IMG/VR virus record: IMGVR_UViG_3300036884_000265
Span: 1-59,395 of that record
Strand: one strand, 5' to 3'
Length of the DNA stretch: 59,395 bases
From: a virus
The notes under the pieces were generated by a model. That model made no database searches. It worked only from the letters and a program-made list of their open reading frames with translations, and was not told the DNA's origin. The position numbers and the translations under genes were made by a program. This document shows positions 9,233 through 59,395 of the stretch, piece by piece (the stretch's first letter is position 1; the number at the start of each line of letters is the position of its first letter).

Positions 9233-10630
9233 TCAGTGAATTATAAGCTTTTCATGACCAATACGTACTTCAGGATCAATCCAAATCTTAAATCCTTTTT
9301 TCATGGCCTTCTGGCAAAAGCCATCATCATCAGTTACAACTTCACACATCTTAAAATTTTGTATCTGATAAATTTGTTTCCATGACTCAAACCAAGGAAA
9401 TCCAATAGCTTCAAATACTCCCTTTTTAATAACAGTTAAACCAAACCCAGTATAATGAGCCGGGATTAAACCCATTTCATTACGCTTAATAAATGGCATA
9501 AGACCAAGTAAATAAGGACGCCTTGTCCAAGGTTTATTAACATCACCAAATAAACCACAAGCTACCTTATTATAAGGACCAAGTAATCCAGTTTCCCTTG
9601 GTGCCATTGAATACCAACCTGCAACAATATCAACATCATGTGAACTTAGTTTAAGAACATCACTTGCTTTTATAAGATTATCAGAATCAACCCAGACAAT
9701 CTTATCATAATCCGCACAATAATCTTCAAATGGAACTTGATCAAGCTCAAATGATTTATTAGCTAAACAAATATTCCTGACATGATAAATATTATTAGCA
9801 AACCCACTTCGTATTAAAACATTTTTACCTATTTTCATAAGCTCAACAATACAACCGAGTAACGTACCTGATTGAAGTCCACTTGAAGGATTACCAGGAA
9901 CACAAAACACAAAATCAACTTTTGCATCTACTCGAGGAGGCTTAGAAATAAACATCCCATATTCCTTAAAAAAGTGCAGTGAATCAACCTTTCCATTAAA
10001 ATGTATGAAGTTTGGAAGTTGATCAGTTACTGTATCAAGTGGTCTTTGATTAAAATTAACCAACTCACCTTCATCTTCCATCATACAATAAAACATTTGC
10101 GTGTTATAATCAAGCTCAAATGTTGAATTAATACCTTGAGCTAACATTTCATTAAGCACTTCTTGATCTAAACCAATCTTAGCTAAGTGCATATTTTGTT
10201 TACATTCTTCAATAAACTCAAGTAAATTATCCCGTGTTCCTGCAAGTCCCCCAAAATTGGCAAACTTCCAAGGTGTACCTCCATCGGGTATTTCATCTTG
10301 AATTGAGCAATTAGGATAACACATTTTCTCAGCTGCAATTAAAACATGCTCCTTAGGAATGTTATTAATAATTTCTTCCTTAGTACCAAAAAATAAAGTA
10401 TCCCATCCATCAACAATTACAATATTCTTATAATCATTAAGTGAAGTAACAACATCATGTAATACATTAAGACGATTTGACACCTCACAAAAGGTAAACA
10501 TATCTCCATTATCAAGTCCATCTCGGGAATCAATATAAAAATCTATTCCAGCATTATTCAATTGTTGTTCAAGCAAACCTAACATTCCCTTTTTCTCCGT
10601 CACTGATGTTACTACAGCTAAATCCTTCAT
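9233..10630 (-). CDS. Two-domain glycosyltransferase (PLOD-type GT plus second GT-A domain), 465 aa
   Basis: Residues 1-225 resemble the glycosyltransferase domain of procollagen lysyl hydroxylases: KNIVIVDGWDTLFF (metal-binding Asp-x-x-Asp near 74-77), SIQDEIPDGGTPWKFANFGG and GLDQEVLNEML. Residues about 238-465 look like a second GT-A domain: VFCVPGNPSSG, KIVWVDSDN (Asp-x-Asp) and a C-terminal DDDGFCQKAM plus IGHEK acceptor/metal motif. No signal peptide, so it acts in the cytoplasm. It lies inside the virion operon, which suggests glycosylation of a capsid or tail protein (inference) rather than of host surface or DNA. Confidence 0.75.
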   Translation of the reverse strand: MKDLAVVTSVTEKKGMLGLLEQQLNNAGIDFYIDSRDGLDNGDMFTFCEVSNRLNVLHDVVTSLNDYKNIVIVDGWDTLFFGTKEEIINNIPKEHVLIAAEKMCYPNCSIQDEIPDGGTPWKFANFGGLAGTRDNLLEFIEECKQNMHLAKIGLDQEVLNEMLAQGINSTFELDYNTQMFYCMMEDEGELVNFNQRPLDTVTDQLPNFIHFNGKVDSLHFFKEYGMFISKPPRVDAKVDFVFCVPGNPSSGLQSGTLLGCIVELMKIGKNVLIRSGFANNIYHVRNICLANKSFELDQVPFEDYCADYDKIVWVDSDNLIKASDVLKLSSHDVDIVAGWYSMAPRETGLLGPYNKVACGLFGDVNKPWTRRPYLLGLMPFIKRNEMGLIPAHYTGFGLTVIKKGVFEAIGFPWFESWKQIYQIQNFKMCEVVTDDDGFCQKAMKKGFKIWIDPEVRIGHEKLIIH

Positions 10631-10652: not shown

Positions 10653-10943
10653 TTATTGAAGTACCGCTAATTTAACTTTAAGTCCTTTAATAATAACCTC
10701 AACAAACTTAGTTGTATCTAAAGCTTGTCCAGTTACTCCACCATTTATATCTCTTAATTCCCAGTTTTCAATAACCTTCAATTCCTTAGAATCAATAATT
10801 GTCAGTGTTGATTGAGTTTGTGGCTGAGTAACTATAACCTTACCAACTGAAGGGGTTGTCTCAAAATAATCCCTTAAGCTATCAATAGCCCTCTTAACAT
10901 CTGCAAATGTTTTTATTGCTGTAATAACAGGAAATTTTTTCAT
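10653..10943 (-). CDS. Hypothetical virion-operon protein, 96 aa
   Basis: A small protein with a N-terminal helix (VKRAIDSLRDYFETTP) and C-terminal strands. No known motif. It overlaps the 732-aa gene end by four bases (ATGA), which couples the two. Possibly a small tail or neck component. Confidence 0.6.
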   Translation of the reverse strand: MKKFPVITAIKTFADVKRAIDSLRDYFETTPSVGKVIVTQPQTQSTLTIIDSKELKVIENWELRDINGGVTGQALDTTKFVEVIIKGLKVKLAVLQ

Positions 10944-13138
10944 ACTGGTATTTCACCTAATGTACTTGCCAAAAATATTCCAGATACTTGAGAAGTTCCT
11001 TGAATCCTTACTTCAAATGCTGTTGTTAATCCAGTTATGCCAAACCGAGCAGGACTTCTTTCTGTAACAATTATACTTAATGTCATAGGAATATCCCTTA
11101 ATATAATATCAACGTAAACTGGGTAATCACGTCCAACAACCTTAATCCAACTTAAGTTTGTAGGTAAGCATAAAAATCTTTTACTAAGCCAATTTAATTC
11201 TCTTAACTCAATAGTATCACTTAATGAAACAATTACCCCGTCAATTATTAAGTACAAACGCCCATCAACTGGATCATGATAACCTGCAGTTGCGTAGAAA
11301 TCAAGATCAACCCAATCACCAGTAACCAAATCAAAAATAAATCCTGCCTTAGCACTTCCATTAGTATAAAAACCAACATACTTACCTTGCCAATAAAATG
11401 CACTTATTGTAGCTGGATTATATAAATCATTCCATTCTTCTCTTGTAAATATATTAGCAGTAACTAACTTAGCTCCATCTTGTCCGATAGTCATTAAGCC
11501 TTCAGGTGATGCATAAGCAATAACACCAGCAGTAGGCACAGGACAAATACTCCGTTTAGCTATACAAGACAAACCACCTACAATTTTCTCCATTGTTGTA
11601 TTACTTGGATCATTACAAATAACTCCATAAGGATTTCCCTTAGTCATTATAACTATAGTTGTTCCAATATTTCCTAAACCTACAATATCTCGATCAGTTG
11701 CCTTTTGATATGCTACTGGCCAAGCATGTGGATAATTTGGAACACTTAAACATAATTGATTATCTACGAAACCTGCAACAACTCCATTAGGTAATGCAAT
11801 TAAGCCTGATATACCAACAGGAGGACCATCCCATTCTGCTGAAGGTAAAATCTCAGCAAGTTGAGCATCAGTTAAGGAATCAACATAAGATGTTGTAGCT
11901 GCTGCAATTTGGTCAACAAACTGAAACTGTGCACTACTTAATGATTGATTAAGTCTATATATATTTATATTCTCAATTGCATATAATGCATCAACACCTG
12001 CATTTGATATTTCAGTTATTGTAGAAGTATCTGCATCATATACATCAACTAAGTTAGATACTGGAGAAGGTGGTCCTTCTTCTCCATACGAATTAACATA
12101 GGTATAAACGTATCCTCGTGTTTCAATTAAAGTTGGATCACCAATTGAGGCATATAATGATCCAGTTCCAGATTGTGTTACTGCTGATGGTGAAGATGTA
12201 TAATTGCTTCCTTTATTAGTTAAATCAGTTGCTATTATTAAATGATTAAGAACGGTATAAGTTCCTGCAACATATACTCCTCCATCTCCACCACTGAATA
12301 TAACAGCATATGTTCCATCAGCTTCAGAACACGTTGCATTTTCAATTTTCAGAACAACCACACATCCAGCTACGGTTGTTACATTAACTACTGGAGGAAT
12401 AACTGGAGCTGGTGGGGATGGTAGTAAATAAGATGTAGGATAATCATTACCATACTTATGCATAGTAAATGTACAAGACCAATTTGCTACTAACGAATTT
12501 GTCATTGTAAGTATTGTTGCTGTTGAAGTAGCTACAAATTCAATAGTATTTGCCCCTGCTGCAAGTAAATTAGATGTTGTCGGATTAGTTAATGATAATG
12601 TTGGAGCTTGTCCTGATGTAAGTGTCAAGGTTGCAACAATTCTATATTTCTTCCCAACTATAGTTGGAACTGATGTAGAATGACCACTTTCAGACGTACC
12701 TGCTGTATTAATTGCCGCTGCTATATTTTCACTTAATACTGATGTAAATGTATTGTACCCAGGACTTCCATTAGTCCAAGTTGTAATTAATTGCAAACCA
12801 AGTCCTGTAAAAAGATATTTATCAGTTACTTTAAATACACCTGCTTCAGTATAAAAAACACGATTAAATACATCTCCAGGAAGAGGAGCCTTAATAGCAT
12901 CAACATCTGAGTTCCAAGTAAAAAACCATCCAACATCTGAATCATCGTAATACTTAAATACGGACAATAAAGGTCCTATATTTTCAGGTGTATTAATTAT
13001 ATCATCCTTAAAATATGGAGCAATTCCACCAATATCAAAGCGGCAATTTAATGCTTGTTGTGCCTTATCTTGAGGAATCGCAAAGGGATCCTTAATCTTA
13101 GGGACCACACCTCCAAATTTTTCAAGTTTAATTAACAA
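10940..13138 (-). CDS. Tail/head-completion structural protein, beta-rich, 732 aa
   Basis: The start is TTG, with GGAG eight bases upstream. The N-terminus (FGGVVPKIKDPFAIPQDKAQQALNCRFD) is a pattern common in phage neck/plug proteins. The rest is strand-rich with repeated short motifs such as TYVNSYGEEGPPSPVSN and YWQGKYVGFY, consistent with a propeller or multi-domain beta structure comparable to the DNA-stabilising tail needle base of P22-type phages. A Thr/Ser-rich insert spans about 140-310. Function inferred from order after two probable adaptors. Confidence 0.6.
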   Translation of the reverse strand: MLIKLEKFGGVVPKIKDPFAIPQDKAQQALNCRFDIGGIAPYFKDDIINTPENIGPLLSVFKYYDDSDVGWFFTWNSDVDAIKAPLPGDVFNRVFYTEAGVFKVTDKYLFTGLGLQLITTWTNGSPGYNTFTSVLSENIAAAINTAGTSESGHSTSVPTIVGKKYRIVATLTLTSGQAPTLSLTNPTTSNLLAAGANTIEFVATSTATILTMTNSLVANWSCTFTMHKYGNDYPTSYLLPSPPAPVIPPVVNVTTVAGCVVVLKIENATCSEADGTYAVIFSGGDGGVYVAGTYTVLNHLIIATDLTNKGSNYTSSPSAVTQSGTGSLYASIGDPTLIETRGYVYTYVNSYGEEGPPSPVSNLVDVYDADTSTITEISNAGVDALYAIENINIYRLNQSLSSAQFQFVDQIAAATTSYVDSLTDAQLAEILPSAEWDGPPVGISGLIALPNGVVAGFVDNQLCLSVPNYPHAWPVAYQKATDRDIVGLGNIGTTIVIMTKGNPYGVICNDPSNTTMEKIVGGLSCIAKRSICPVPTAGVIAYASPEGLMTIGQDGAKLVTANIFTREEWNDLYNPATISAFYWQGKYVGFYTNGSAKAGFIFDLVTGDWVDLDFYATAGYHDPVDGRLYLIIDGVIVSLSDTIELRELNWLSKRFLCLPTNLSWIKVVGRDYPVYVDIILRDIPMTLSIIVTERSPARFGITGLTTAFEVRIQGTSQVSGIFLASTLGEIPV

Positions 13139-39152: not shown

Positions 39153-40493
39153 TTGAACGAGATTTTTGAGCTTAAAACAGATAAAATAATAATTAATGAA
39201 GATTTACCCCGCATAAGACAAGACATGCAGAAAATAAATGCGCTTGCCGAATCATTTAAGCGTTTTGGTCAACTTCAGCCAATTATAATTAATCGAGATT
39301 ATGAATTAATTGTTGGAGGAAGACGTTTAGCCGCTTGTGTAATAAGTGGAGTGAAAGTTAAGTGTTGTTTCAATGATGCAATTGATAAGGATGTTATGCG
39401 GGAACTGGAGATTGAGGAGAATTTACAGAGGGAAAATTTTACACCTGCTGAAGAAGTATTAGCTATTGAAGAATTACATAGAATTAAGACTGCCCGTTTT
39501 GGAGAAGCTAAACTTGGTAGACCAGGAGTAGAATTTGAAGGTGAAGATAAAGATAAAGGATGGAGGGTTGAGGATACTGCTGAAGTAATGGGTAAGACTG
39601 AAGGTAACATACGGGCAGCATTAAAAATGGCAGAAATGGTTAGACAATTTCCTGAGCTTAAAGGCGCAAAAACTAAGAAGGATATTGTCCGGGCAGCTAA
39701 GGGGCTTGAACAAGTTGTAAGACGCATTGATGCAATTGATAAGTATAAAGATATGACTAAGGAAATTGAAATTCCAGTAATTATATCAAGGGCTGATGCA
39801 AGAGATTTTATGAAGGAAATTCCTACGAAGAATGTTGACTTATTATTAACTGATCCAATTTACGGAATTGACATTGATGAGGTTGCAATGGGTTTAGGTG
39901 GAGAAACTGGAGGTAGTTTAACAACATCAGGTTTTAATTATGAAGATAAACATGATGAAGCAATGGATTTATATGAAATCTTAGCTAATGAATCATTTCG
40001 CTTTTGTAAGGATGATGCTCATGCTTGGGTGTTTCTTGGTCCTGAGAATTTTTGGGTGGTAAAGGAAATATTCCAAAAAGCAGGTTGGCTTGTTCATGTT
40101 AAGCCATTTATATGGATTAAGGGGATGAGTGGTCAAGGTAATCAACCAAGTATGTGGCCAACTTCAGCTTATGAAATGTGTTTATTTGCAAGAAAACATG
40201 AGTCAAAATTAGTTATTGAGGGAAAGGTGGACTGGATACAATTACCAAGAATTAATCCCAATGAAAAAAGGCATGGAGCTGAAAAACCATTAGCATTAGG
40301 AAGGGAATTAATTTTAAGAACAACCTTACCTGGTATGATTATGGCAGATCCATTTATGGGAAGTGGATCATTTGTTGAGGCCGCTTGTGATGCTAAGTTG
40401 GCAGTGTTAGCTTGTGATATTACAATGGAAAGTTATGCTACAACAATTGAGAGGATTGGTAAATGGAAGGAAAGGAGGGATGCTGAAAAATGA
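39153..40493 (+). CDS. ParB-like domain fused to DNA methyltransferase, 446 aa
   Basis: TTG start with GGAGG. Residues 1-110 are a ParB/Srx N-domain (RIRQDMQKINALAESFKRFG, IIINRDYELIVGGRRL, EIEENLQRENFTPAE). Residues about 210-446 are an N6-adenine/N4-cytosine methyltransferase of beta order: catalytic TDPIYG (about 232) before the AdoMet motif DPFMGSGSFVEAA (about 398). No restriction enzyme is nearby, so it probably protects phage DNA or marks it for packaging or replication. The fusion type is known in phages. Confidence 0.82.
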   Translation: MNEIFELKTDKIIINEDLPRIRQDMQKINALAESFKRFGQLQPIIINRDYELIVGGRRLAACVISGVKVKCCFNDAIDKDVMRELEIEENLQRENFTPAEEVLAIEELHRIKTARFGEAKLGRPGVEFEGEDKDKGWRVEDTAEVMGKTEGNIRAALKMAEMVRQFPELKGAKTKKDIVRAAKGLEQVVRRIDAIDKYKDMTKEIEIPVIISRADARDFMKEIPTKNVDLLLTDPIYGIDIDEVAMGLGGETGGSLTTSGFNYEDKHDEAMDLYEILANESFRFCKDDAHAWVFLGPENFWVVKEIFQKAGWLVHVKPFIWIKGMSGQGNQPSMWPTSAYEMCLFARKHESKLVIEGKVDWIQLPRINPNEKRHGAEKPLALGRELILRTTLPGMIMADPFMGSGSFVEAACDAKLAVLACDITMESYATTIERIGKWKERRDAEK

Positions 40494-45398: not shown

Positions 45399-46055
45399 AT
45401 GAATAAAAGAATCGTAGTGATCGCAACAATCATGTTTTTGATGTTTGCACCAATGGCAATGGCGTGTGATATTGAAGCTCAATGTGAGGGACCCTGCGGC
45501 AAGGTAATTCAACCTGGTCAGCAAAGCCCTGTCACAGTCAGTCAGTCACAAAGTGAAAGCCTGGCTCAGGGACAGCAGTTTACATTAGCCTTGACAGGTG
45601 ATGAAAGAGATTTTCTCCCATCACCCGTGGTTATCCCTATTCAACCGGTTCCTATGCAGGGAGGAAGTCAAGAAAATTATACCCCTTATCTCCCCAAGTT
45701 TGCAGACCCTATGCTTCAACCGTTCAACTTCAGCACAGATGTAGTTGTAAAGCAGTTAGACATATTTAACGGAAAATGGTTGTTCGGCCTGTTTGGCAAC
45801 ATTACCCAGGATGAATTATGGGGCAAATTACTCAGCCTCCCTGGTAATTACAAAAGCTATCCTCAGGATAAAATAAGGATACAAGTCCAGGTAAGCTCGT
45901 CAAGCGTGGAGAATGGAATAGGTGGTGGTGGAAGCGGCGGGTCGTCGGTCATGAACGCCAGCAATGCAGTATCAGGATCAGCGTCCATATTACCTCATCA
46001 TACCAGATGGACAAAGGATGATACCTTTTTAATTCGCGTATTGCTCATTCAGTGA
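45399..46055 (+). CDS. Secreted protein with signal peptide, 218 aa
   Basis: ATG 45399 with GGAGG; the longer opening overlaps the previous gene. Signal peptide (MNKRIVVIATIMFLMFAPMA, cleavage near AMA-C). Three Cys follow (CDIEAQCEGPC), then a Gln/Ser-rich and Pro-rich region, and a Gly/Ser-rich region (GGGGSGGSS). Richer in G+C than the genes before it. It may be exported to the periplasm or outside. Function unknown. Confidence 0.65.
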   Translation: MNKRIVVIATIMFLMFAPMAMACDIEAQCEGPCGKVIQPGQQSPVTVSQSQSESLAQGQQFTLALTGDERDFLPSPVVIPIQPVPMQGGSQENYTPYLPKFADPMLQPFNFSTDVVVKQLDIFNGKWLFGLFGNITQDELWGKLLSLPGNYKSYPQDKIRIQVQVSSSSVENGIGGGGSGGSSVMNASNAVSGSASILPHHTRWTKDDTFLIRVLLIQ

Positions 46056-46274: not shown

Positions 46275-46538
46275 ATGATAAAAATTATATTTGTAGCAAT
46301 CTTATATGTATTACTTACTATATCGTTCGTTAATGCTCAAATAATTCCATCGACACCTGCAACACATGCATTAACTCAGCCAACATTGGAACAGCTTACA
46401 ACTGAGCAAGATAGGGACTTAGCAAGGTGGCAAGTTATTCAATATCAGGCAAGGGACTTGCAAAATACAATTCAGGAAAGGGATGCTCAGATTAAGAAAT
46501 TGCAGGAAGCTAATAAACCTAAGACTGAAAAGAAGTAG
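46275..46538 (+). CDS. Secreted coiled-coil protein, 87 aa
   Basis: Signal peptide (MIKIIFVAILYVLLTISFVN, cleavage near NAQ) and then a helical, charged domain (EQLTTEQDRDLARWQVIQYQ) typical of periplasmic coiled coils such as spanins. Last plus-strand gene, facing the lysis cassette across the convergent hairpin; a lysis role is possible. Confidence 0.6.
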   Translation: MIKIIFVAILYVLLTISFVNAQIIPSTPATHALTQPTLEQLTTEQDRDLARWQVIQYQARDLQNTIQERDAQIKKLQEANKPKTEKK

Positions 46539-47561: not shown

Positions 47562-47789
47562 CTATTTCCCTGTCGAGTTCAGAAGGCCAAGTAAGGCGTT
47601 AAGGGTGGCGGCATCGATTTTTTGCCCGTTGACTTTTATGCTTGCATTGCCCACCGTTGCCTCTGTGCTATCCGCTGTCGTGAATAGTCGGGTATAGCTG
47701 ACCGTTGTCCCATCTGCCGTCTGATAATGTAGAGATGCACATCCCGTGAGACATAAACAGATAATTCCTACTACGATAAATAATTTCAT
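47562..47789 (-). CDS. Small lipoprotein, possible outer-membrane spanin, 75 aa
   Basis: MKLFIVVGIICLCLTGCASL has a clear lipobox (L-T-G-C). The mature part is about 59 residues and includes YQTADGTTVSYTRLF, like host-derived lysis lipoproteins. Position between endolysin and DUF1353 favours an o-spanin or lysis lipoprotein. Confidence 0.65.
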   Translation of the reverse strand: MKLFIVVGIICLCLTGCASLHYQTADGTTVSYTRLFTTADSTEATVGNASIKVNGQKIDAATLNALLGLLNSTGK

Positions 47790-48226
47790 GTTGCCTCCTT
47801 AATATTGTCTACCCATCTATAACCTAACACATCCGACTCTTGAAAAAAAGATAGTTTTACGGCATCAGACTGATTACCGCCGACTAATTGTACCCATCCG
47901 CCCGGTGATCTTCGATATTTGAATATTCCAACATGACCGCTTGGAGGATTGCCACGCTTCAGAACAGTGATACATCCAGGGAAAGGATTGTCTATTTTAA
48001 CGCCCCAGTTTAACCAGGAACGTGCCATAGCGTTGTTTGTTCCCTTACCCCCTGCCTGTATGACTACCCAATTTGTAAACGCACTGCACCATGCGATTTC
48101 GTCACTGTTCATTGAAATACCGACAGTGCTGAGATATTCAAGTATTCTCTTTGTCGATTCCGGGCCGGGAGTTTCATGGACTCCTATTTCACCTTCTGCT
48201 ATTCTCAGTACGTCTTTTGGTTGCAT
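47786..48226 (-). CDS. Endolysin, CHAP/TIGR02594-type peptidase, 146 aa
   Basis: Active Cys in EIAWCSAFTNW (C47) and His in SGHVGIF (H98), then VGGNQSDAVKL as in CHAP-like TIGR02594 phage enzymes. It would cleave peptidoglycan peptide bonds. No signal peptide, so it depends on a holin. Overlaps the lipoprotein gene by four bases. Confidence 0.8.
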   Translation of the reverse strand: MQPKDVLRIAEGEIGVHETPGPESTKRILEYLSTVGISMNSDEIAWCSAFTNWVVIQAGGKGTNNAMARSWLNWGVKIDNPFPGCITVLKRGNPPSGHVGIFKYRRSPGGWVQLVGGNQSDAVKLSFFQESDVLGYRWVDNIKEAT

Positions 48227-48243: not shown

Positions 48244-48313
48244 GATGGGAGTTACACAGAGGTGTATTCCGATGCACAGCAGTACCATACATCTTTCCGC
48301 GTTCACTCCCATC
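48244..48313 (-). ncRNA. Candidate structured RNA between lysis genes
   Basis: GATGGGAGT (48244-48252) and ACTCCCATC (48305-48313) form a perfect closing stem. Inside, TACAC-AGAG-GTGTA and GATG ... CATC give two more stems, a possible three-way junction of 70 bases. Could be a translation-control leader of the endolysin. Confidence 0.45.
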
Positions 48314-48620
48314 ACTTCTGACCTCCAAAAATAGCGATCCCGCCCTTCTCTCCGGTCTTGCCTTGTATCCCTTGTGCTCCGGTATTTCCCTTATTAAACG
48401 TTTTATTCTGTTCCATCTTTTTAAGCATTTTATTATTGCTACCGCTTACATCGTTATATTTCTGCTGAAAATCTTTCTGCTGTTCAACAACTGCTGACAT
48501 GCTTTTGGTAAGTGTAGCAAGGTCTGAATACACCTTTTCAGGTACACCTCTCGGCTGACTATTCATATAAATATTGGTAGCAATGAAAGTAACCAGACCC
48601 AGAACAATAGCTATAAGCAT
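48312..48620 (-). CDS. Membrane coiled-coil protein with collagen-like tail, 102 aa (downstream part of a TAG-split gene)
   Basis: Starts MLIAIVLGLVTFIATNIYMN (membrane helix), then a coiled coil (about 30-75) and a short Gly-x-y tail (GNTGAQGIQGKTGEKGG). The same frame continues upstream through 23 more codons to TAG 48690-48692 and then 30 codons to an ATG with a good ribosome site. Only a weak AGGA precedes this ATG, so it is a reinitiation product or part of a read-through protein of about 156 residues. Confidence 0.55.
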   Translation of the reverse strand: MLIAIVLGLVTFIATNIYMNSQPRGVPEKVYSDLATLTKSMSAVVEQQKDFQQKYNDVSGSNNKMLKKMEQNKTFNKGNTGAQGIQGKTGEKGGIAIFGGQK

Positions 48621-49446: not shown

Positions 49447-50877
49447 TTAGAATTTACATCCACTGCGTGTTCCACCTGAAAAAGTTGTTGTTGTTCCTGC
49501 GGAAGTTCCTCCTGTACCAACAAGAGCTACATTTGCGCCCATGTCTGCACCCGCTTTACCGGTTCCAACGCAAGGAGCTTTTATCAGGAAATCGTTGAGC
49601 GTGTTGAGGTTTCCGCTTCCATTCGTGAAACAGGACGTTGCTGAATTCAAGCTGTGTGTATCAGGATGACCACCTCCTGACAATTCGCTCGACGCCGCCC
49701 ACGTTGCCAGCGTAGAATAGTATGAACCCGATGGACCTCTGACCATGAAGTTTGTATTACCAAACGAGTTATAGTCTTGTTCCGTAAGAACTGAACCCGA
49801 AGTGTGTCTGACCACTGAACTCCCATAATCTGTGGGAGCGTGAGGCACTTGCAGGGCATTATTGTAGAGATGATGTCCTGTGCCGTCTGCGATAATCAAA
49901 TATGCCTCGCCAGTCGTGTAAGTGGAATACATTGAATTGTTATAAATATTCTCAGTGGCAAAAGTCTGACCGTCCGATATTTCGTTATATACCCCTGTCC
50001 CTGTAAAATTAACGATCACGTTTTGATATATCAGTAAGTTGGCTGGAGACCATATATTATATGCCGATGCATAAATGCCGGTGTCGGTATCGTGGATATA
50101 GTTATAACTCACCGTACAGTTTTGACAGTCTCTCTTGAAATAGATTGTATTAGTATTGTTGGAAAACTCATTATTTTTAACGAGTGTATTCGCCGTGTCG
50201 TAGGTCTTGATTGCCGAGGTGTTATGATAATTGTTGGTCTCCATATAATGATAAAAGGTATTGTTTTGAACAGTCGTATCAGATACGCACTCTATTCTCA
50301 AACCCTCCACATTGTCAGTGTTTGTCTGTACTGTAGACCCGCCACTGAAATAGCAATTCTGAATAGTAACGTGCGTTGAAATCGGGACATAAGTCGAACA
50401 AAGGTCGTTGCTTCCTAAAACCATACGAGCAGTATTCAGACCTCCGTCTACCTGAAGAGTAAATCCATCGAAGACAATATAGGTCTTATCATAGGTCCCA
50501 AGCATCGTTTCTCCTGATTGTCCACTAACGCCTTCTCCCCCTGCAGCAGTACCGTTGAGAATGGGAGTTTCTCCTGTGTACGCCCGAAAGGTTATTGGGC
50601 TTCCTGCTGTTCCTGAATGTTGAGGCTCATAATATCCGTGGTATCCGTCTGCGGATTGACTCAGGTAGTTGTATCCATTTTTTGTAGGAACCGTGTATGT
50701 ACCTCCACGAAAGAGCCATATATCACCCGCCACTGCGTTTGACATAGCATAGGCAATGGTACAGGGAGAACCGATTGAACAGGTTGAACCGGAACCGGCG
50801 TTGGAAACATAATAAGTGGCTGAGAAAACCCATACAGGAAACAAAACAATGAACAATATTAAGATATATTTTTTCAT
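49447..50877 (-). CDS. Secreted right-handed beta-helix protein, 476 aa
   Basis: Signal peptide (MKKYILILFIVLFPVWVFSA). The mature start YYVSNAGSGSTCSIGSPCTIAYAMSNAVAGDIWLFRGGTYT is the entry of pectate-lyase-type beta-helices. Later VTIQNCYFSGG, LRIECVSDTTVQNNTFYHY and VSYNYIHDTDTGI are helix rungs. Such folds bind or cut polysaccharide, as in tailspikes, yet a signal peptide is odd for a virion part. Overlaps the 335-aa gene by four bases. Confidence 0.72.
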   Translation of the reverse strand: MKKYILILFIVLFPVWVFSATYYVSNAGSGSTCSIGSPCTIAYAMSNAVAGDIWLFRGGTYTVPTKNGYNYLSQSADGYHGYYEPQHSGTAGSPITFRAYTGETPILNGTAAGGEGVSGQSGETMLGTYDKTYIVFDGFTLQVDGGLNTARMVLGSNDLCSTYVPISTHVTIQNCYFSGGSTVQTNTDNVEGLRIECVSDTTVQNNTFYHYMETNNYHNTSAIKTYDTANTLVKNNEFSNNTNTIYFKRDCQNCTVSYNYIHDTDTGIYASAYNIWSPANLLIYQNVIVNFTGTGVYNEISDGQTFATENIYNNSMYSTYTTGEAYLIIADGTGHHLYNNALQVPHAPTDYGSSVVRHTSGSVLTEQDYNSFGNTNFMVRGPSGSYYSTLATWAASSELSGGGHPDTHSLNSATSCFTNGSGNLNTLNDFLIKAPCVGTGKAGADMGANVALVGTGGTSAGTTTTFSGGTRSGCKF

Positions 50878-51881
50878 GGATTAGCCGCCTTAAATCCTAT
50901 TATAAGAGTTTGCCAACTACCGGATGCTACCCTTGTTGTGGTCATAGATGTAGCACCGGCAGTGGTTTGAATATGGTCAAACATATAATGATAATGGTCA
51001 TTTTGATTTACTCTAATGGTGTAACCGGCTCCAGGAGTTGGTGTACCCGCCGTTGCCTCATCTCCACACATGACTATTATCAGTGAATTGTTATAGCTTG
51101 TAACAATTGTCTCCGATGAAGGATTGGCCGATGAAGTATCCGCTCCCAAGGGTGTACCGTCTAACGTACCAGCAGCGGTTAAGCCGGAATATTCAGCCAT
51201 GCCCCATCCAAAATCTCCTCCTCCGTTTGTAACCGATACGGCATTGCTTCCAGCGGTTGCATCAGGACACCATGCAACCTTCGAATAAACATCGGTTGTA
51301 TGAATGACTGAGGAGTATTGCCATGAAACACCACAACCTCCAGAAAGTGTAGTTGTCGCAAGATCAACGCCTGACGACATACCGGCGATTAAGGCGTTGT
51401 GAACCGTTACCCCTGTTATCGTTAAAGCTGAATTGGCGTAGACCGACTGAACGTGACCAGCGATGAAGGCAGGGGCGACCGAACCGCTACTCGGTGTGGC
51501 CGTTACCTCACTACTACACGTCTGCCCGGCCAAATCAGTTCCGCATAATCTATAATAATAAGGGGTTCCATTTGTACGTCCGGTATGTACATAAGCCGTG
51601 CCAGGGAATGATGCTACAACGAGCGTGGCATTACTTATATTGTTAGCGTACAGATTGTATGTTGCGCGAGATGTGGTGTCCCAGTAAAGTACATTTGTTA
51701 AAGCTCCCACGTCACCGGAAGTTAGGGCAATAGTGACTTGAGCGGCCCCTGCTGTAGCTGAAATGACTGGGGAAGTAGGAGGTGTTCCTACTACCTTTCC
51801 AATTTGCATAAGCATTTGTGCTTGACAGGAAATACCCCATCCAATCAAAATCAGTAAAATAAATATAAGTATTTTTCTCAT
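50874..51881 (-). CDS. Secreted FN3-domain protein, 335 aa
   Basis: Signal peptide (MRKILIFILLILIGWGISCQ). A fibronectin type III-like domain spans about 35-135 (PTSPVISATAGAAQVTIAL ... YYYRLCGTDLAGQ). The C-terminal half is a beta-sandwich-like domain (GWGMAEYSGL, NSLIIVMCGDEAT, WQTLIIGFKAA) seen in phage fibre and adhesin proteins. GGAG ribosome site. Part of the G+C-richer island. Confidence 0.65.
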   Translation of the reverse strand: MRKILIFILLILIGWGISCQAQMLMQIGKVVGTPPTSPVISATAGAAQVTIALTSGDVGALTNVLYWDTTSRATYNLYANNISNATLVVASFPGTAYVHTGRTNGTPYYYRLCGTDLAGQTCSSEVTATPSSGSVAPAFIAGHVQSVYANSALTITGVTVHNALIAGMSSGVDLATTTLSGGCGVSWQYSSVIHTTDVYSKVAWCPDATAGSNAVSVTNGGGDFGWGMAEYSGLTAAGTLDGTPLGADTSSANPSSETIVTSYNNSLIIVMCGDEATAGTPTPGAGYTIRVNQNDHYHYMFDHIQTTAGATSMTTTRVASGSWQTLIIGFKAANP

Positions 51882-51884
51882 ATC

Positions 51885-54800
51885 TTAGCTCCCTGCTGAA
51901 GTTCCTGATAAAGTGGTACATTTCAAGAGCCAGGTTGAAGTATTGGTCTTAAATGAGAAACAACTTAAGCTACTTGATATAGGTTGAGCAGTAAACGTAG
52001 CATATCTTTGAGCAGTACTGCTACCATCCAAGTATAGACTACTTGCACCAGCATCCAATCTAAACCCACCAGTACTTGTCAAAGCTGTGCCCTGAATCAT
52101 AACGAAGTTTATCCCTGCTACTAAAGCTGGTGCCGTAACTGTAACAACACCACTGCTTGTTGGTGACTGACCATAGTTACCTACAATGGCATTACTCAAC
52201 TGTGCAGCTGTAGGAGTACAATTTGCTGAGCAGTCAATAGCTTGAGGAGTTACTGAAGCTGTTGTAAGAACAGGAGAAGTACTCATTACAGGTGAACCAG
52301 TTCCTGTTGAAGCTGTCCATACTGGAATTGTTGTAACTCCTGCGCCTACTAATTGATAATTTGCTGAACCTGCTGCTAAATAACTAAGTGCTGCTCCTGA
52401 ACCATTTGACATTAAGAATGAACCAACTGCACCTGGAGCCAATGCAGCAATTGTGTTTGCAGTAGCTGCATGAAGTAACCCACCCTGAACATATGTATCA
52501 GCATAAGTTGATGTAGAATCTGTATATTTACCTGCAACTGTTGTAGAAGTTGGAAATTTTCCTGCTGCTGTATCGGTTGCAGTAAGTAAGGGTATATATC
52601 CTGTTACTGCTATATCAGGAATATTAACAATCCTTGCTGCTGCTGAAGTACCAGTAATCTGAAAATTGTTTGTTGCTGCATTTCCTAAGTAAAATGAAGC
52701 AAATGGGGCAGCTGCTGTTCCAATAGTTCCTGTCCCTGCGGTTGCTGCATGAATATCTGTTGTTATTGCTGCAGTAGTTAATGCAGGTGATGTCATTGTT
52801 TGAACACCAGTAAATGAGTTTGCTGCATCAGTTCTTGCAACCGTTATTGCTGCATCAGGAAATGTAATTATTCTTGCTGTTGCACCACCAGTTGTAAATG
52901 TAAGTGGAGCAGTTGCACCTGCTAATGGTATTGAGTATCTTGTAGTTGATGGACTAAGATAAAATGATGTCCCATCAAACTCCATTGCTCCAGCTGCTGC
53001 TGTTGTTAAGTTTGTTCCTGATTGAAAATATAATGGGCCAGCTCCTACTCCAATTGCCCCAACCTTAAGTGTTAATGCAGTTGTTAGTGTACCGCCAGTA
53101 AAACCACCAGCAACAGACCAAATTGGTACATGAGTTGAAGGTGAAATTGTTAATACATAAGAATCAGTTCCAGCAGCCAAGCGAGTCCAGGCATTTGCTG
53201 AAGATGCATATAATAAATCTCCCGTTGCTTGGGATGCAATTACCATTGCAGCTGGTGATCCTGTTGTTGCAAGCAACGAAGAAGTTGTTGAAGGGAATGT
53301 ATATGTTTGTGCTGCTGTTCCTGAGAAAGTATATCCTGCATAACCCGGTGCTGTCGTAACACCACCACTAAGTAAAGGTTGACCTGCTGCAACATCGGCA
53401 AGACGAGTAATTGCAGTACCTGAAGTAGCATAAAATATATCTCCAACTGCCTGAGATGCTAAGGCAATTGGTGCAGTTAATGTACCAAGAGTACCGGAAG
53501 TTGGAAATGTAACACTCGTATTTCCCCCAAGTGTCCATGCCATTGAGTAATTGCCACCGGCAAATGTTATCGTATTAAGATCATTATTAGCAATACCTGT
53601 CCCACCCTTTGACCCAGTAACAATTGGTAAATCAGATGCTGCAATTGCCCTGAATGAAGGATCTGCTGTTGAATTAGCAAATAAGGGATATGTTGGATTA
53701 GCTACATTTGCTACGACTACTGGAGCAGTTGATGCTCCTTCCATAACAACAATACCATGAGTAGTAAGTGCAGCTGTTGAAGATATAGTATTACTTGATG
53801 AAACATAAGGTAATCCACCATTTGTCATTGTATTAATACTAATTTGATTAGCATAACTTGATGACAAAGCAGGAACAACCCAAGTCATTGGTGTTCCATA
53901 AGCTACAACTTGACCTGTTGTTGGAGTAGCATTAGGATATTGCAGCGTATATGCTGAAGCCATTGAACCAGTTGGACCTTCAAAAATAACTCCAAATGCT
54001 TGAGTTGAAGAATCATTATACAACTGAGATGTTCCAGCAGTTCCACTTGTTTTTGCTGATGCAAAACCTTTTGCGGTTATGACATAAGCCCCAACATTCC
54101 AATCTGCAGTTAATGGAATTGTGCCATCTGCTTTTAAATCACCAGTACCTGCAGGAGCAGCCCAAGAAATTGTTCCACTTGTATTAGCTAAATAATATGT
54201 ACCCGTGGCTGAAGTAATTGCACTTAAAACATTTGCTGAATTAGCTGCAAATATCGAACCTGCTGCAATTGTATCAGGCATTGTTAATGTAGTTTCAAGA
54301 TAATTTGTTCCATTTGCCCTAATTAATTTCCCTGTTGTTGCAGCTGTTGGCCAAGTTGCTGAAGACCAAGCAGGATTTGTTGCACCCATTTGAAGCATTT
54401 TGCCCGTTGACCCTGCAGCAAGAACTGAAAATGCATCAGTACCTGTACCATAAATAAGTGAACCTGAAGTAATTGTTAAACCAGCAAGGGCAGTTAATGT
54501 CCCATCAGATGTTTGATAAGTTGAAGGATTAACATTACAACCGATTAATGTACCTGAAGCAGTATAATTACACAAATCACCATCAGTAAATGTTCCATTT
54601 AAAATAAGTGTTTTACCTGCTCCAATTGTTAATGAACCTGCTGCACCAGCAATAAGTGAACCTGTCCCATTTGAGATTGTTAAGGCATTTGTTGTAGCAT
54701 CATTAATCGTAAATGTTGACCACTGAGGAGCAGTATCTCCAGCATTCATTCTTAATACATTATAAGCTGCTCCTTTAGCAAGTCTTCCATAAGATGAAGC

Positions 54801-56300
54801 ACCACGATATGCCATATCTCCAGCAGCATCAGAAGTAAAAACTAAGTCACTTGCAGTTGTAAATTGAGTATTACATGAAATCAATGTACCTGAAGTAGTA
54901 TACTTGCAATAATACCCATCAGTCATTGTACCAAGAATTGCACCTGCATTATCCGTAGCTTGTCCTGTCCCTGTAAACTTAACAAGTGAATTTGCTAACG
55001 GAGTTGATGGTCCGGTTACTGGCCTTGTAATTGTTGTTTGATAACCTGTAATTGCACCTGCTCCACCAAATGCTAAAACACCAATTGAGGAAATTGTAGC
55101 AAAATCAGCACCTGTTCCTATTTTAAGAAATTGAGTTCCATCTGCAGCTAAACCTAAGCCTAAACGCGCAAATTGAGGAGTTGCTGTTGTTCGTATATCC
55201 TGAATAGGATTAATGGTATAAGTTGAATTAGCTCCTCCATCAGTTCCTGCTGCCATTGAAGTTCCCATTGTAAGAACACGTTCACTTGTTAATGTCCCAT
55301 CTGTACCCAAGGTGATATAAGATGCATCAACTGGAGCAGCAGTTGCCCCAACTGAGTTCCATCCTGAGTCATAAAATTTAATTGCTTTAGCTGCATGATC
55401 GTAAGTTATTGGATAACCCGCACTTGGAACATTATCTACCCAAGCAGGTAATTCAAATCCATATCTTAATCCTGTTGCAGGTGAGGCTGCACTTAAATTC
55501 ATTAAGTATGTAGCACCTGCAGTTAAGTTTGGAATATCCCCACTTACTAATGCAGGTAACTGAGCATGGGGTAAGGTACCTGTTGTTAAATCACTTGCTG
55601 AAACCGTTACATTTGAACTTAAGGCATGACCATTAACTGTTGTTGAACTCAATGCAAAGTCAGTTGAAGCATGACTTGCTGCACTTAAAATTGTTGTTCC
55701 TCCACCATACTTGCTTACTGTAACTCCTCCACCAAATGCAATAGCTGCATCACCACTCATTGTAATTGGAGCATAAGCAGTACCACCAGTATTACCAACT
55801 AAAATTTGACCTGATGCTGGAGCAGTATTCGGAACAACACTTGCCTTAGTCTGAGCATCATTTGTCACTGCTGATAAACCAACCATTGTTGAAGTTATAC
55901 CACCAACAGTTCCTGTAAATGTTGGATTTGCTAAGGTTGCATAACTTGCAATTGTGGCAAAAGCACCAGTACCAAAGGAAACACCACCAGACTTAGCACA
56001 AGTAATTGCACCAGAAGCAACAACTAAGGTACAATCCCCGGACATTGTAAATCCAGCAAATGCAGTACCTCCGGAATTGTACTGAATTTGATTTGCAGTA
56101 CCTCCAGGATTTGCTGCAGTCCCTGAAACAACTGCACATGCATATTTATGTGTTGTTGTTGAGTATGTTAAGACATACCCATTAGTACTACAAGTAGGAA
56201 GTCCTGCTCCCAAAATAAACGGAGGAGGAACCTGAGCATTTAGTAATGAGCAGGTAAAAAATAATGTAATAAATGTTATAAGTAATATAAGCTTTTTCAT
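51885..56300 (-). CDS. Long fibre protein with signal-peptide-like N-terminus, 1471 aa
   Basis: Signal-like start (MKKLILLITFITLFFTCSLL, cleavage near NAQ). Many repeats follow, such as GTANQIQYNSGGTAFAGFT, TSDGTLTALAGLTITSG, GTATLSISW-like strands and TSGTLISCN, low in charge and rich in Thr/Ser/Gly/Ala, as in trimeric tail fibres. The C-terminus (SSLSCFSFKTNTSTWLLKC) resembles a fibre tip. The longest gene of the window; AT-rich like the virion operon and unlike the genes after it. Confidence 0.65.
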   Translation of the reverse strand: MKKLILLITFITLFFTCSLLNAQVPPPFILGAGLPTCSTNGYVLTYSTTTHKYACAVVSGTAANPGGTANQIQYNSGGTAFAGFTMSGDCTLVVASGAITCAKSGGVSFGTGAFATIASYATLANPTFTGTVGGITSTMVGLSAVTNDAQTKASVVPNTAPASGQILVGNTGGTAYAPITMSGDAAIAFGGGVTVSKYGGGTTILSAASHASTDFALSSTTVNGHALSSNVTVSASDLTTGTLPHAQLPALVSGDIPNLTAGATYLMNLSAASPATGLRYGFELPAWVDNVPSAGYPITYDHAAKAIKFYDSGWNSVGATAAPVDASYITLGTDGTLTSERVLTMGTSMAAGTDGGANSTYTINPIQDIRTTATPQFARLGLGLAADGTQFLKIGTGADFATISSIGVLAFGGAGAITGYQTTITRPVTGPSTPLANSLVKFTGTGQATDNAGAILGTMTDGYYCKYTTSGTLISCNTQFTTASDLVFTSDAAGDMAYRGASSYGRLAKGAAYNVLRMNAGDTAPQWSTFTINDATTNALTISNGTGSLIAGAAGSLTIGAGKTLILNGTFTDGDLCNYTASGTLIGCNVNPSTYQTSDGTLTALAGLTITSGSLIYGTGTDAFSVLAAGSTGKMLQMGATNPAWSSATWPTAATTGKLIRANGTNYLETTLTMPDTIAAGSIFAANSANVLSAITSATGTYYLANTSGTISWAAPAGTGDLKADGTIPLTADWNVGAYVITAKGFASAKTSGTAGTSQLYNDSSTQAFGVIFEGPTGSMASAYTLQYPNATPTTGQVVAYGTPMTWVVPALSSSYANQISINTMTNGGLPYVSSSNTISSTAALTTHGIVVMEGASTAPVVVANVANPTYPLFANSTADPSFRAIAASDLPIVTGSKGGTGIANNDLNTITFAGGNYSMAWTLGGNTSVTFPTSGTLGTLTAPIALASQAVGDIFYATSGTAITRLADVAAGQPLLSGGVTTAPGYAGYTFSGTAAQTYTFPSTTSSLLATTGSPAAMVIASQATGDLLYASSANAWTRLAAGTDSYVLTISPSTHVPIWSVAGGFTGGTLTTALTLKVGAIGVGAGPLYFQSGTNLTTAAAGAMEFDGTSFYLSPSTTRYSIPLAGATAPLTFTTGGATARIITFPDAAITVARTDAANSFTGVQTMTSPALTTAAITTDIHAATAGTGTIGTAAAPFASFYLGNAATNNFQITGTSAAARIVNIPDIAVTGYIPLLTATDTAAGKFPTSTTVAGKYTDSTSTYADTYVQGGLLHAATANTIAALAPGAVGSFLMSNGSGAALSYLAAGSANYQLVGAGVTTIPVWTASTGTGSPVMSTSPVLTTASVTPQAIDCSANCTPTAAQLSNAIVGNYGQSPTSSGVVTVTAPALVAGINFVMIQGTALTSTGGFRLDAGASSLYLDGSSTAQRYATFTAQPISSSLSCFSFKTNTSTWLLKCTTLSGTSAGS

Positions 56301-56318
56301 TTCACTCTCCGTTTTATA

Positions 56319-56774
56319 TTAACGTCTCTGGTTCCATATCCAAGCTCTTATTGTAAATATTGCTCCATGCACAATATTACTTGTTATTACTGGAGTCAAT
56401 GTACCATTAATCCATCCACTTATTGCAGGAGCAACTCTATTTGCTGTTGCCCCAAGCATTGTTGATCCGGTACTGCTTAGAACATCAGCACTTGATTCTG
56501 ATGATAATAATGTAAATCCACTTGACGCAGTTGGTGAAGGGCTTCCTGGAGTTGTATCAACTGAATAAACCCACCCCCTAAATGTAGGTGAAGGAGTGAT
56601 TGTAGTTGGAAATGTTCCATCACCTGAATTACCTGTACATACCCATGTAACACTTGAAATAGCATCAAGATCTTGATGAGTCATTACACACGAACCAGCA
56701 AGTGCATGTGCAAATAACGGAAAGAATACCGTAATTATTACGATGTTTAATAAAATGCATAAATACCTTTTCAT
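56319..56774 (-). CDS. Secreted protein, 151 aa, signal peptide encoded over palindromic copy 9
   Basis: Signal peptide (MKRYLCILLNIVIITVFFPL, cleavage near AHA). The mature part starts SCVMTHQDLDAISSVTWVC and is Ser/Thr-rich with strands, ending in a basic WNQRR. The dispersed palindrome lies inside the signal-peptide codons. Possibly a small fibre-locus component. Confidence 0.6.
   Translation of the reverse strand: MKRYLCILLNIVIITVFFPLFAHALAGSCVMTHQDLDAISSVTWVCTGNSGDGTFPTTITPSPTFRGWVYSVDTTPGSPSPTASSGFTLLSSESSADVLSSTGSTMLGATANRVAPAISGWINGTLTPVITSNIVHGAIFTIRAWIWNQRR
56722..56751 (+). repeat. Dispersed palindromic element, copy 9 (inside a gene)
   Basis: The core CGTAATTATTACG is at 56730-56742, with AAGAATA and ATGTTTAA flanks. 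It is translated on the minus strand as NIVIITV of a signal peptide, so the hydrophobic segment and the DNA element coincide. Confidence 0.88.
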
Positions 56775-56799
56775 AAGTCCTCCATTAAGTTAAATTAAA

Positions 56800-58710
56800 C
56801 TAAAAACCTCTTTCTATAGAAATTCTTGAGTTTCCATTAATTGCTGTCCATATAGTTGTATCCTCCGTAAGTGTGAAGTCCTTTGAATATATTTGTGTGC
56901 GAAGTCCAGGATACCCTTCCCAAAGAAAAACCTTTTTTAAATCCACTCCCATATAATCATATAAGGTTGTCAATGTTGGATATGATCCACCTGAATGAGT
57001 AATTAACTCACCCGAATCATATCTTCCATTTAAGGCATAATTAATAACACTTGTTATTGTAGTTGCACCTGCAAGGGCTTCCCCAACAAAAACAACTTGT
57101 GTAGGTGTTACCCAATTGTTATAATATCCTGAATACATAATAGCCTGAAGAATATTATAATAATACAATGTATCTGGACTTAAGGCCGTAGGTGGAGTAA
57201 ATGCAGTTGTATAACGTGCATAAGGAGTATACCTAAACTCATCATAATATCCACCATCAGCACTAAATCCCAAGCCTGTTTCAATACCTAAGTAAAATAA
57301 TCCAGTTACATTATAAATAGAAAGAGAAGATGTTACTGCAATATCCTGAACTCCATCTACATAAATTTTATATGTAAGTCCACTCCAGACAATGGCAATG
57401 TGATACCAATTATCTTTAAGTAATGTTGCAGTTCCAGTATTACCATTTGCAATATCTTGTGAATTACCAGCAGAAGACATAAATATCTCTAAATGGTTAA
57501 ATGAGTTTCTTGTCAATTGTAATGAACGCAATGATTCACCATATACAACAGGATAATTATTTCCACTTGTTTGTGTTGGTCTGTAATAAAATTCTATTAC
57601 CCAGGGATGAGAACTCCATAAATAAGGTAATGTAGTATTCCAAACCGGTCCGGCTACTGGATATATATAAGGAGTATATGCAGATGCAGTTCCATATTTA
57701 GATTGAGCAGTAGAAATAACAGCATAATCAGTTGTTCCTGTCCACACATTTCCGTAAGTATCCGTGAAAGTTGTTGCCCCATTTGTACCATCAAAATTTG
57801 CAAGAACAGCAGCATTTTGGCCAGCTCCCGTTGGAGCAACAACTGAATATGATGGTTTATAAGGAGTGCTTCCAAGTGTAATTGCTCCAGTACCTGAATC
57901 TCTACTTGCATAAAGGTAATTGTTTGCATAAGCCTGAACTGCTGGCCATGCAGTATCTGCAACAATTGCCCCAACATAATCTGATCTTCCAGTTACTTCA
58001 AATCCAGCTGCAAAAGACACATACACAGGAGTTGTTGTTGCTGCAAGGGCAGGTAATAAACCAGTCCCAGTTGATATGAAATTAGGATGTCCATTTGCAT
58101 CAACTGCTGAATTTAATACAGTTTGTCTTGTACTATTTAAGGAAGCTGAATTTTCACCAGCAGGTCCTGTTGGCCCCTGTGGTCCTTGTGGACCAGTTAC
58201 GGAATCACCTTTATCTCCTTTAGGGCCAGCAGGACCTGATGCTACCCATATAACCCAAGGAGTTAATGCTGAACCTGAGCCACTTGTATTTGTTACATTA
58301 ACAACAAGTATGCCTGTCGTATAATTATAACTTGTAATTGTACCAAGCATATAATCACTAACATCAGTTGCATAAGTAATTTCAACAACCATTCCGGTAA
58401 TGAAGGATAGACCGGCTTCAACAGTTAATGTTTTTGTACCTGTACCTATTGTCAGCATTGATGTTGAACTTCCATAAATGTTTCCAAGGTAAGGTAGGTT
58501 AATCCAGTGACTTAAACCATCACCAATTTTAAGTCGGTTAGCATCATACTCAAAACCTGGTTCACCTTGTAATAAAACTGGATTGTATCGTGTCCAGTTA
58601 CTTGCAGTATCTCTTCTTAATTGATACTGATTAAATAAGGTATCTCCATTTACAACTGTTGAGATGAATAACATCAAGAATATAAATAGCCCACAAATAA
58701 GTTTTTTCAA
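56800..58710 (-). CDS. Tail fibre protein with collagen-like and LamG-like domains, 636 aa
   Basis: TTG start overlapping the ATP-grasp stop (TTGA). Signal-like N-terminus (MKKLICGLFIFLMLFISTVV), then FNQYQLRRDTASNWTRYNPV, GEPGFE and KIGDGLSHWINLPYL, a module known from N-termini of phage receptor-binding proteins (Mtd-N type). A collagen-like stretch follows (GPAGPKGDKGDSVTGPQGPQ), then a concanavalin/LamG-like domain (about 300-510: FYYRPTQTSGN, WYHIAIVWSGLTYKIYVDG). Receptor binding is likely. Confidence 0.75.
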   Translation of the reverse strand: MKKLICGLFIFLMLFISTVVNGDTLFNQYQLRRDTASNWTRYNPVLLQGEPGFEYDANRLKIGDGLSHWINLPYLGNIYGSSTSMLTIGTGTKTLTVEAGLSFITGMVVEITYATDVSDYMLGTITSYNYTTGILVVNVTNTSGSGSALTPWVIWVASGPAGPKGDKGDSVTGPQGPQGPTGPAGENSASLNSTRQTVLNSAVDANGHPNFISTGTGLLPALAATTTPVYVSFAAGFEVTGRSDYVGAIVADTAWPAVQAYANNYLYASRDSGTGAITLGSTPYKPSYSVVAPTGAGQNAAVLANFDGTNGATTFTDTYGNVWTGTTDYAVISTAQSKYGTASAYTPYIYPVAGPVWNTTLPYLWSSHPWVIEFYYRPTQTSGNNYPVVYGESLRSLQLTRNSFNHLEIFMSSAGNSQDIANGNTGTATLLKDNWYHIAIVWSGLTYKIYVDGVQDIAVTSSLSIYNVTGLFYLGIETGLGFSADGGYYDEFRYTPYARYTTAFTPPTALSPDTLYYYNILQAIMYSGYYNNWVTPTQVVFVGEALAGATTITSVINYALNGRYDSGELITHSGGSYPTLTTLYDYMGVDLKKVFLWEGYPGLRTQIYSKDFTLTEDTTIWTAINGNSRISIERGF

Positions 58711-59395
58711 AGTGTACCCCCTAAACCAAATTTTTCTCCTTCCTTAATCATTTCTTTCAACTCCTCAAATGAATTTTTGTTATAAGATTTATGTGGGCAC
58801 TTAAAATTTTCAGCTGCCTTTAAACATTCTTCTTCAGCCTCATCCTGCGTATCTCCTAATCCAACTACTTTAACAATTGTTGAACCATTTTTCTTAAATG
58901 GAATATGCTGAAATATACCTTCAACTTTACAAGCTGTTCTCAATTTAACACTAAGCCAATCCTTAGGATCAAACTCAAATGGAGTAGGTTCATCTGCACA
59001 ATCAGCAGAATCAACACTTAATTCAGCTCCAAATTTTGTGCGAAATTCAGGTTCAACAACTTCCCCATGAGCAATTCCTTGGACAATTTTAGGAAAGTTT
59101 TTATATTCTGATGTAATAACCCCAGCAGGTGGATTACCAAATCTTGAACATATATCACTGAAGTGAGGAACTTTATTCTTTCCTTGTCTAAATTCAGTTG
59201 ATATTGCCCCATCAACTTCACAACCTAAATAAACTGGAGCCATAGCTTCATGTATTGTCTTAAGTGGTTTAATAATTTCATTCATATTAACTACTCGACA
59301 TAAGTAAGAATCACCTTTATGTTCCCAGCCATATAAGCCCATTTTAAAAGGAATACCCTTACAAATAAAAACATCATCTCCCGGCTCACTTCCCT
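58707..59395 (-). CDS. ATP-grasp (PurD-like) ligase, C-terminal part, cut by window edge
   Basis: Continuation of the gene at 1-711. The piece before 59292 duplicates codons read at the left end (EGSEPGDDVFICKG). The C-terminal half includes EVDGAISTEFRQG, FSDICSRFGNPP, a probable catalytic/ATP-site region, and an insertion-free end. The 212-codon ATG at 59342 is an internal Met, not the start. Joined, the protein has 431 residues. Confidence 0.75.
   Translation of the reverse strand, partial: GSEPGDDVFICKGIPFKMGLYGWEHKGDSYLCRVVNMNEIIKPLKTIHEAMAPVYLGCEVDGAISTEFRQGKNKVPHFSDICSRFGNPPAGVITSEYKNFPKIVQGIAHGEVVEPEFRTKFGAELSVDSADCADEPTPFEFDPKDWLSVKLRTACKVEGIFQHIPFKKNGSTIVKVVGLGDTQDEAEEECLKAAENFKCPHKSYNKNSFEELKEMIKEGEKFGLGGTL
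59292..59395. repeat. Terminal redundancy, right copy
   Basis: Same 104 bases as 1-104 with one difference (C at 59296, T at base 5). The change turns a Gln codon into Arg in the ATP-grasp gene. Confidence 0.9.

Follow-up and report, generated by a model that had tools for sequence, protein, structure and literature searches.

Predicted Sec signal peptides on five consecutive fibre-locus genes of a podovirus

Introduction

Tailed phages normally make the parts of their fibres wholly in the cytoplasm, and the virion is taken as finished there. Use of the Sec pathway by such phages is known for endolysins, among them Lys44 of Oenococcus phage fOg44 and the SAR endolysins of P1 and phage 21 (PMC6116005). 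These resemble the case described here as late products that depend on host Sec and stay outside the inner membrane until holin action; however, they are single lytic enzymes, whereas the genome analysed here (IMG/VR record IMGVR_UViG_3300036884_000265, 59,395 nucleotides, the whole of which we call the window) carries a block of fibre- or adhesin-type proteins. The target proteins of phage DGRs are stated to be without signal peptides (PMC6199706). Bacterial DGR lipoproteins of the Legionella type offer a likeness as lectin-like adhesins that are Sec-exported and surface-displayed, but these are cellular and the window is viral.

Two groups of phages come closer. The Mtd family of Bordetella phage BPP-1 (PF18454) shares with the window the same N-terminal domain, the fibre architecture and a late structural neighbourhood, but all Mtd_N fibres sampled outside the clade begin at the domain, whereas in the window and in related contigs G006 and G007/G008 a signal comes first. 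Phages of the Bcep22/Lessievirus type (DC1, Itty13, Pavtok, PBC5 and Microcystis phage Mwe-JY07) have capsid proteins 40-43% identical to that of the window, together with a related portal, terminase and giant internal protein and a similar structural gene order. The fibre genes of these isolates sit between those of capsid and internal virion proteins, around the phrog_511 gene, and lack signals with the exception of PBC5 gp16. A full-text literature search of partial coverage brought up no account of signal-bearing fibres as a set; the fibre families are familiar ones, and the literature searched does not describe their systematic export.

Results

The window is a podovirus genome in which PHROG profiles identify a major head protein, a portal, a large terminase and an internal virion protein, with DNA polymerase and primase encoded on the strand opposite the structural genes. 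An exact 99-base direct repeat is present at its ends (6-104 and 59297-59395) and splits one 430-aa gene between them (1-711 joined to 58707-59393), from which we conclude that the window assembles into a closed circle and is probably complete. Only the 3' half of this gene is represented by the ORF at 58707-59342; the gene itself lies upstream of the fibre block, has no Pfam match and is conserved among relatives at 40-61% identity.

On the minus strand the 430-aa gene is followed by genes for proteins of 636, 151, 1471, 335 and 476 aa, and past this five-gene block by small membrane proteins, a CHAP-domain protein and a lipoprotein. The module has a late-operon position. The CHAP-domain protein is endolysin-like (47786-48226, minus strand; PF05257, E 2.3e-7). 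The 75-aa lipoprotein (47562-47789, minus strand), which was absent from the list in an earlier note on this DNA, has an LTG^C lipobox and is a candidate outer-membrane spanin, and the product of 48312-48620 (minus strand), an N-terminal membrane segment (TM 2.18) followed by a coiled-coil-like part and a collagen-like part, may be the inner-membrane spanin. When GTDB genomes were scanned with the capsid protein, one locus was found, in a gammaproteobacterial MAG. Since the lipoprotein and the candidate inner-membrane spanin are present and a Pfam search of the five proteins gave neither a C-terminal beta-barrel nor a CTD translocation domain, a diderm host with storage of the exported proteins in the periplasm seems likely.

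The first gene of the block (56800-58710, minus strand) starts with a TTG codon that overlaps the stop of the preceding gene. It encodes a 636-aa fibre with a predicted signal at residues 1-22 (score 38.5), Mtd_N at 30-65 (PF18454, E 1.2e-13, 51.1 bits against a cut-off of 26.3), a collagen-like stretch, LamG at 366-496 and a conserved C-terminus. Mtd_N thus stands at the mature N-terminus, after the signal, which places the fibre in that family; LamG is called by Pfam (PF13385, E 1.6e-9). Next are a 151-aa beta-sandwich protein (56319-56774, minus strand; score 30.7) and a 1471-aa tail-fibre-repeat protein (51885-56300, minus strand; score 34.8) whose predicted mature N-terminus begins QVPPPFILGAGLP. 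The 335-aa protein (50874-51881, minus strand; score 36.8) is a predicted secreted protein for which the earlier label of FN3 found no profile confirmation, as it has neither a Pfam nor a PHROG match, and its structure model has a pLDDT of 33. The 476-aa protein (49447-50877, minus strand; score 36.0) matches Pfam Beta_helix (E 3.4e-10), and with a PHROG tail spike match at E 0.001 this right-handed beta-helix protein is tailspike- or depolymerase-like. A tblastn search of INPHARED with four of the fibre genes gave no match.

The earlier note had claimed that all five of these genes, from 49447 to 58710, carry Sec-type signals, and this was borne out: all five were called as Sec/SPase-I type, with rule scores of 30.7-38.5. 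Each protein begins with Met, one to three Lys/Arg and 12-18 hydrophobic residues leading to an A-x-A-type site, and each gene has a purine-rich ribosome-binding site 6-10 bases ahead of its start codon, which makes the signal-bearing starts credible; positive n-region, h-region, cleavage site and supported start are therefore found in every one of them. The likely cleavage points are MKKYILILFIVLFPVWVFSA^TYY for the 476-aa protein, for which the rule itself chose a later site that is allowed just as well, MRKILIFILLILIGWGISCQA^Q for the 335-aa, MKKLILLITFITLFFTCSLLNA^Q for the 1471-aa, MKRYLCILLNIVIITVFFPLFAHALA^G for the 151-aa and MKKLICGLFIFLMLFISTVVNG^D for the 636-aa protein. Signals that had also been proposed for two plus-strand genes were recovered, both behind a ribosome-binding site. 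One is at 45399-46055, inside ORF 45363, where the rule calls a protein of mature start CDIEAQC, the counterpart of which in the related contig G001 (3665-4363) is signal-bearing too; the other encodes an 87-aa protein (46275-46538; score 38.9).

On 50 kb of E. coli K-12, which served for calibration, the rule recovers seven of the eight secreted proteins with scores of 18-27. Its only other calls were tolA and ybgE, both N-terminal membrane segments, and within this stretch no soluble cytoplasmic or polytopic membrane protein was called, one small N-terminal-membrane case excepted. Real ORFs were used as backgrounds, since 1-23% of shuffled N-termini passed a loose threshold. Among the 606 ORFs of at least 100 aa in 79 other Mtd_N loci (670 kb), 2 reached a score of at least 30; the enrichment in the five-gene block is significant against this background (Fisher p = 3e-11) and within the window (p = 3e-6). 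Across the 38 signal-bearing proteins of the clade, Ala is found at -1 in 28 and at -3 in 20, the median signal length is 22 residues, and no convincing membrane segment was seen beyond the signal. The pattern of a SAR-type anchor, weakly hydrophobic and without a cleavage site, was absent from the window proteins, in which the A-x-A-type sites are clear. To judge from these features, the fate of the five N-termini is very probably Sec export and cleavage by signal peptidase I.

Relatives were found in IMG/VR by their capsid protein, the Stx-phage records among the matches being left out of the comparison. Runs of two to five consecutive signal-bearing ORFs occur in the near-complete contigs G001, G006, G007, G017 and G033, and more such genes in the partial contigs G003, G024 and G035 and in several short loci, while nine other near-complete contigs have none or a single isolated one. 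In a capsid tree the signal-bearing contigs are not confined to a single branch of the environmental group; a fully supported branch separates the window's group from five cultured relatives. Among eight cultured relatives scanned, seven had no signal on a fibre-slot gene, the exception being Sinorhizobium phage PBC5, whose gp16 (L251, 6493-7542) is a GDSL hydrolase in the fibre slot with a signal peptide, MKTFGKVLAVMALLGCFASLDTVANAQS, called at a lowered scan threshold and not at the stricter one; the other fibre genes of PBC5 are ordinary and signal-less. Being in culture, PBC5 offers a convenient laboratory model. The signal-bearing fibre genes of G007, G024 and G033 adjoin the nozzle-like gene, the region of the signal-less fibres in isolates, and G003 has signal-less Mtd_N and 496-aa fibres alongside its signal-bearing genes. 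G008 (IMGVR_UViG_3300027896_000014, 145 kb) was considered as a phage joined to its host and rejected; it consists of two phages joined, one of which is the G007 phage.

The earlier note had also held such signals to be abnormal for tailed-phage fibres, and the wider Mtd_N family supports this. In the 79 other loci, about 74 of which have a readable start, no signal was found and the protein begins directly with the domain, in keeping with the description of phage DGR targets (PMC6199706); a signal of 22-29 residues precedes Mtd_N in the window, G006 and G007/G008. The closest relative with the locus, G001, with a capsid protein 86% identical to that of the window, keeps a signal-less Mtd_N fibre beside its signal-bearing genes. 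This orthologue is 51% identical to the window fibre over residues 22-193 and 45% over 513-636, and its start, MSGTIFETIKMRRDTLANW, aligns with NG^DTLFNQYQLRRDTASNW of the window protein, exactly at the predicted cleavage point. In each genome the fibre start codon shares bases with the stop of the same upstream gene, as TTGA in the window and as ATGA in G001, and the difference is therefore a clean insertion or loss of the signal at the start codon. The occurrence of the fibre with and without a signal at one locus suggests that its function tolerates either compartment.

A 300-aa gene of G001 in the same place as the 1471-aa gene shares with it PPPFI.G right after the signal. A scan with the 151-aa family matched G001 only. 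In a pair of 151-aa orthologues the signal sequences have diverged while the architecture is kept, which points to selection on the function of the signal. The model of the mature 151-aa protein (pLDDT 82) has as its best fold match a signal-less 125-aa viral protein (TM 0.81), with weaker resemblance to phage structural proteins. From these comparisons, it appears that ordinary phage parts acquired the signals.

The mature 1471-aa protein has 12 cysteines, which fall into six tight pairs (14/32, 67/78, 442/453, 554/565, 1334/1338 and 1424/1438; p = 1.5e-5 under random placement in a permutation test). In the 151-aa protein the mature pair Cys3/Cys20 is kept in G001 and G017, that is, in three phages, and the model places the two residues in facing hairpin strands (2-10 and 13-21), in register if residue 10 pairs with 13. 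The cysteine pairs of these two proteins would fit with folding in an oxidising compartment. Clear pairing is limited to them: the mature 636-aa fibre has no cysteine, and over all signal-bearing proteins the counts are even in 18 and odd in 14. A raised total cysteine content of the signal-bearing proteins was dropped as evidence because the difference is weak (1.25 vs 0.96 per 100 aa).

No signal-less fibre-like protein was recognised in the window. Adjoining its nozzle-like phrog_511 protein (10940-13138, minus strand), a profile search found a 96-aa stub (10653-10943, minus strand) whose N-terminal motif is found, in signal-less relatives, at the head of a full-length fibre of 637 aa. This anchor-like motif of about 28 residues, PVIxxIRTFxDVxxALxxIRxYF, heads fibres adjoining the nozzle gene; there is one copy in the window stub and three tandem copies in G007 (39438-39695) and in L064 (18001-18252). 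The stub was tried as a marker of signal-bearing phages (7/7 vs 1/5, Fisher p 0.01) and dropped, since L265 and L266 combine it with a signal-less Mtd_N fibre.

Discussion

The earlier note had listed four meanings for the signals without choosing between them. The one that fits best is that the fibres are joined outside the inner membrane, and two of the others are weakened. Against a decoy or a surface coat stands the failure to find any outer-membrane-crossing domain, together with an apparently diderm host; membrane-anchored assembly is disfavoured by classical cleavage sites and by mature parts that have no further membrane segments. The results suggest that the fibre parts mature outside the inner membrane, and that their joining to the virus, or their action on the host, waits until about the time of lysis.

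The scheme that we propose, of Sec export to the periplasm, disulfide bonding and docking to virions at lysis, may well be right as a whole, although we stop short of calling it probable; export itself, disulfide formation and docking are all three steps that we infer. The host Sec translocon would take the Mtd_N-LamG fibre and the 151-aa, 1471-aa, 335-aa and beta-helix proteins, signal peptidase I would remove their signals, and the proteins would fold and form disulfide bonds in the periplasm of a diderm host, while virions were assembled in the cytoplasm without them. Once the holin opened the inner membrane, virions and stored fibres would meet in the dying cell, and the fibres would dock on the virion, perhaps via the small anchor-motif stub at the nozzle. 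As no signal-less fibre was recognised in the window, its receptor binder is likeliest one of the signal-bearing proteins, and such a protein would have to join the virion once the inner membrane is open. The apparent tolerance of the Mtd_N fibre for either compartment, which docking at lysis would allow, also suggests this. On the other side, a domain search found no known docking domain in the signal-bearing fibres except Mtd_N, the signal-bearing set of G003 need not be the fibres of its virion given that signal-less ones are kept there, and the stub does not mark the system, since L265/L266 pair it with a signal-less fibre. With a little more reserve, we suggest a virion of two compartments, in which a cytoplasmic capsid and tail and periplasm-matured, disulfide-bonded fibres are joined only at lysis and the Sec signal is an evolvable, switchable part of a fibre gene.

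Alternatively, the module may be secreted and never enter the virion, supplying periplasmic or extracellular glycan-binding and glycan-degrading proteins that are released in infection or at lysis and that modify the envelope, block re-adsorption or superinfection or clear surrounding polysaccharide. We rather doubt this but take it seriously, as the signals and glycan-type domains of the module, the signal-less Mtd_N fibres that G003 and G001 retain next to signal-bearing genes, and the single signal-bearing GDSL hydrolase that PBC5 has in addition to its signal-less fibres would all be expected of it. It fits less well with a window in which the Mtd_N fibre itself lies behind a signal, as also in G006 and G007, and in which nothing signal-less was recognised that could serve in adsorption; moreover, with no recognised domain for export across the outer membrane, the proteins would, in a diderm host, stay in the periplasm until lysis.

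The remaining readings concern what the N-termini are and where the genes came from. That they are uncleaved SAR-like anchors, holding the fibres on the inner membrane until pick-up by the virion or depolarisation, has a precedent in the SAR and signal-peptide export of phage endolysins (PMC6116005) and in some long h-regions of 15-18 residues; we consider it improbable given how cleavable the signals look (Ala at -1 in 28/38 and at -3 in 20/38, median length 22). Hydrophobic tails might in principle enter the portal or nozzle, but it is very improbable that the N-termini are segments for virion attachment or trimerisation that merely resemble signals, since n-, h- and A-x-A c-regions recur on unrelated proteins, the signals diverge while their architecture is kept and signal-less Mtd_N proteins start directly at the domain. 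It is hardly credible that the genes are cellular secreted adhesins acquired by, or mis-assembled into, a viral contig. Beta-helix, LamG and GDSL domains do also occur in cellular secreted proteins, but the genome is a closed circle, the module adjoins structural and lysis genes and recurs at syntenic places in independent contigs, and both Mtd_N and the fold of the 151-aa protein are families of phages.

Conserved exported fibres would, if true, imply either that assembly has a second step outside the inner membrane or that infection includes a secreted arm against host glycans. The recognition of receptor-binding proteins would also be affected, as a signal peptide tends to count against a phage fibre, and here the domains that follow the signals are of fibre and depolymerase types (Mtd_N, LamG, beta-helix, GDSL and collagen). 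Disulfide-stabilised, secretable fibres would in that case be useful reagents.

A further gene of the window (9233-10630) encodes a protein of 465 aa in which Pfam recognises a glycosyltransferase domain of PLOD (procollagen-lysine) type (PF25342, E 1.7e-14) and which weakly matches a 2OG-Fe(II) oxygenase PHROG. It could act on collagen-like repeats, and the same phage has collagen-like fibres; a similar gene, of 464 aa, is found in G001.
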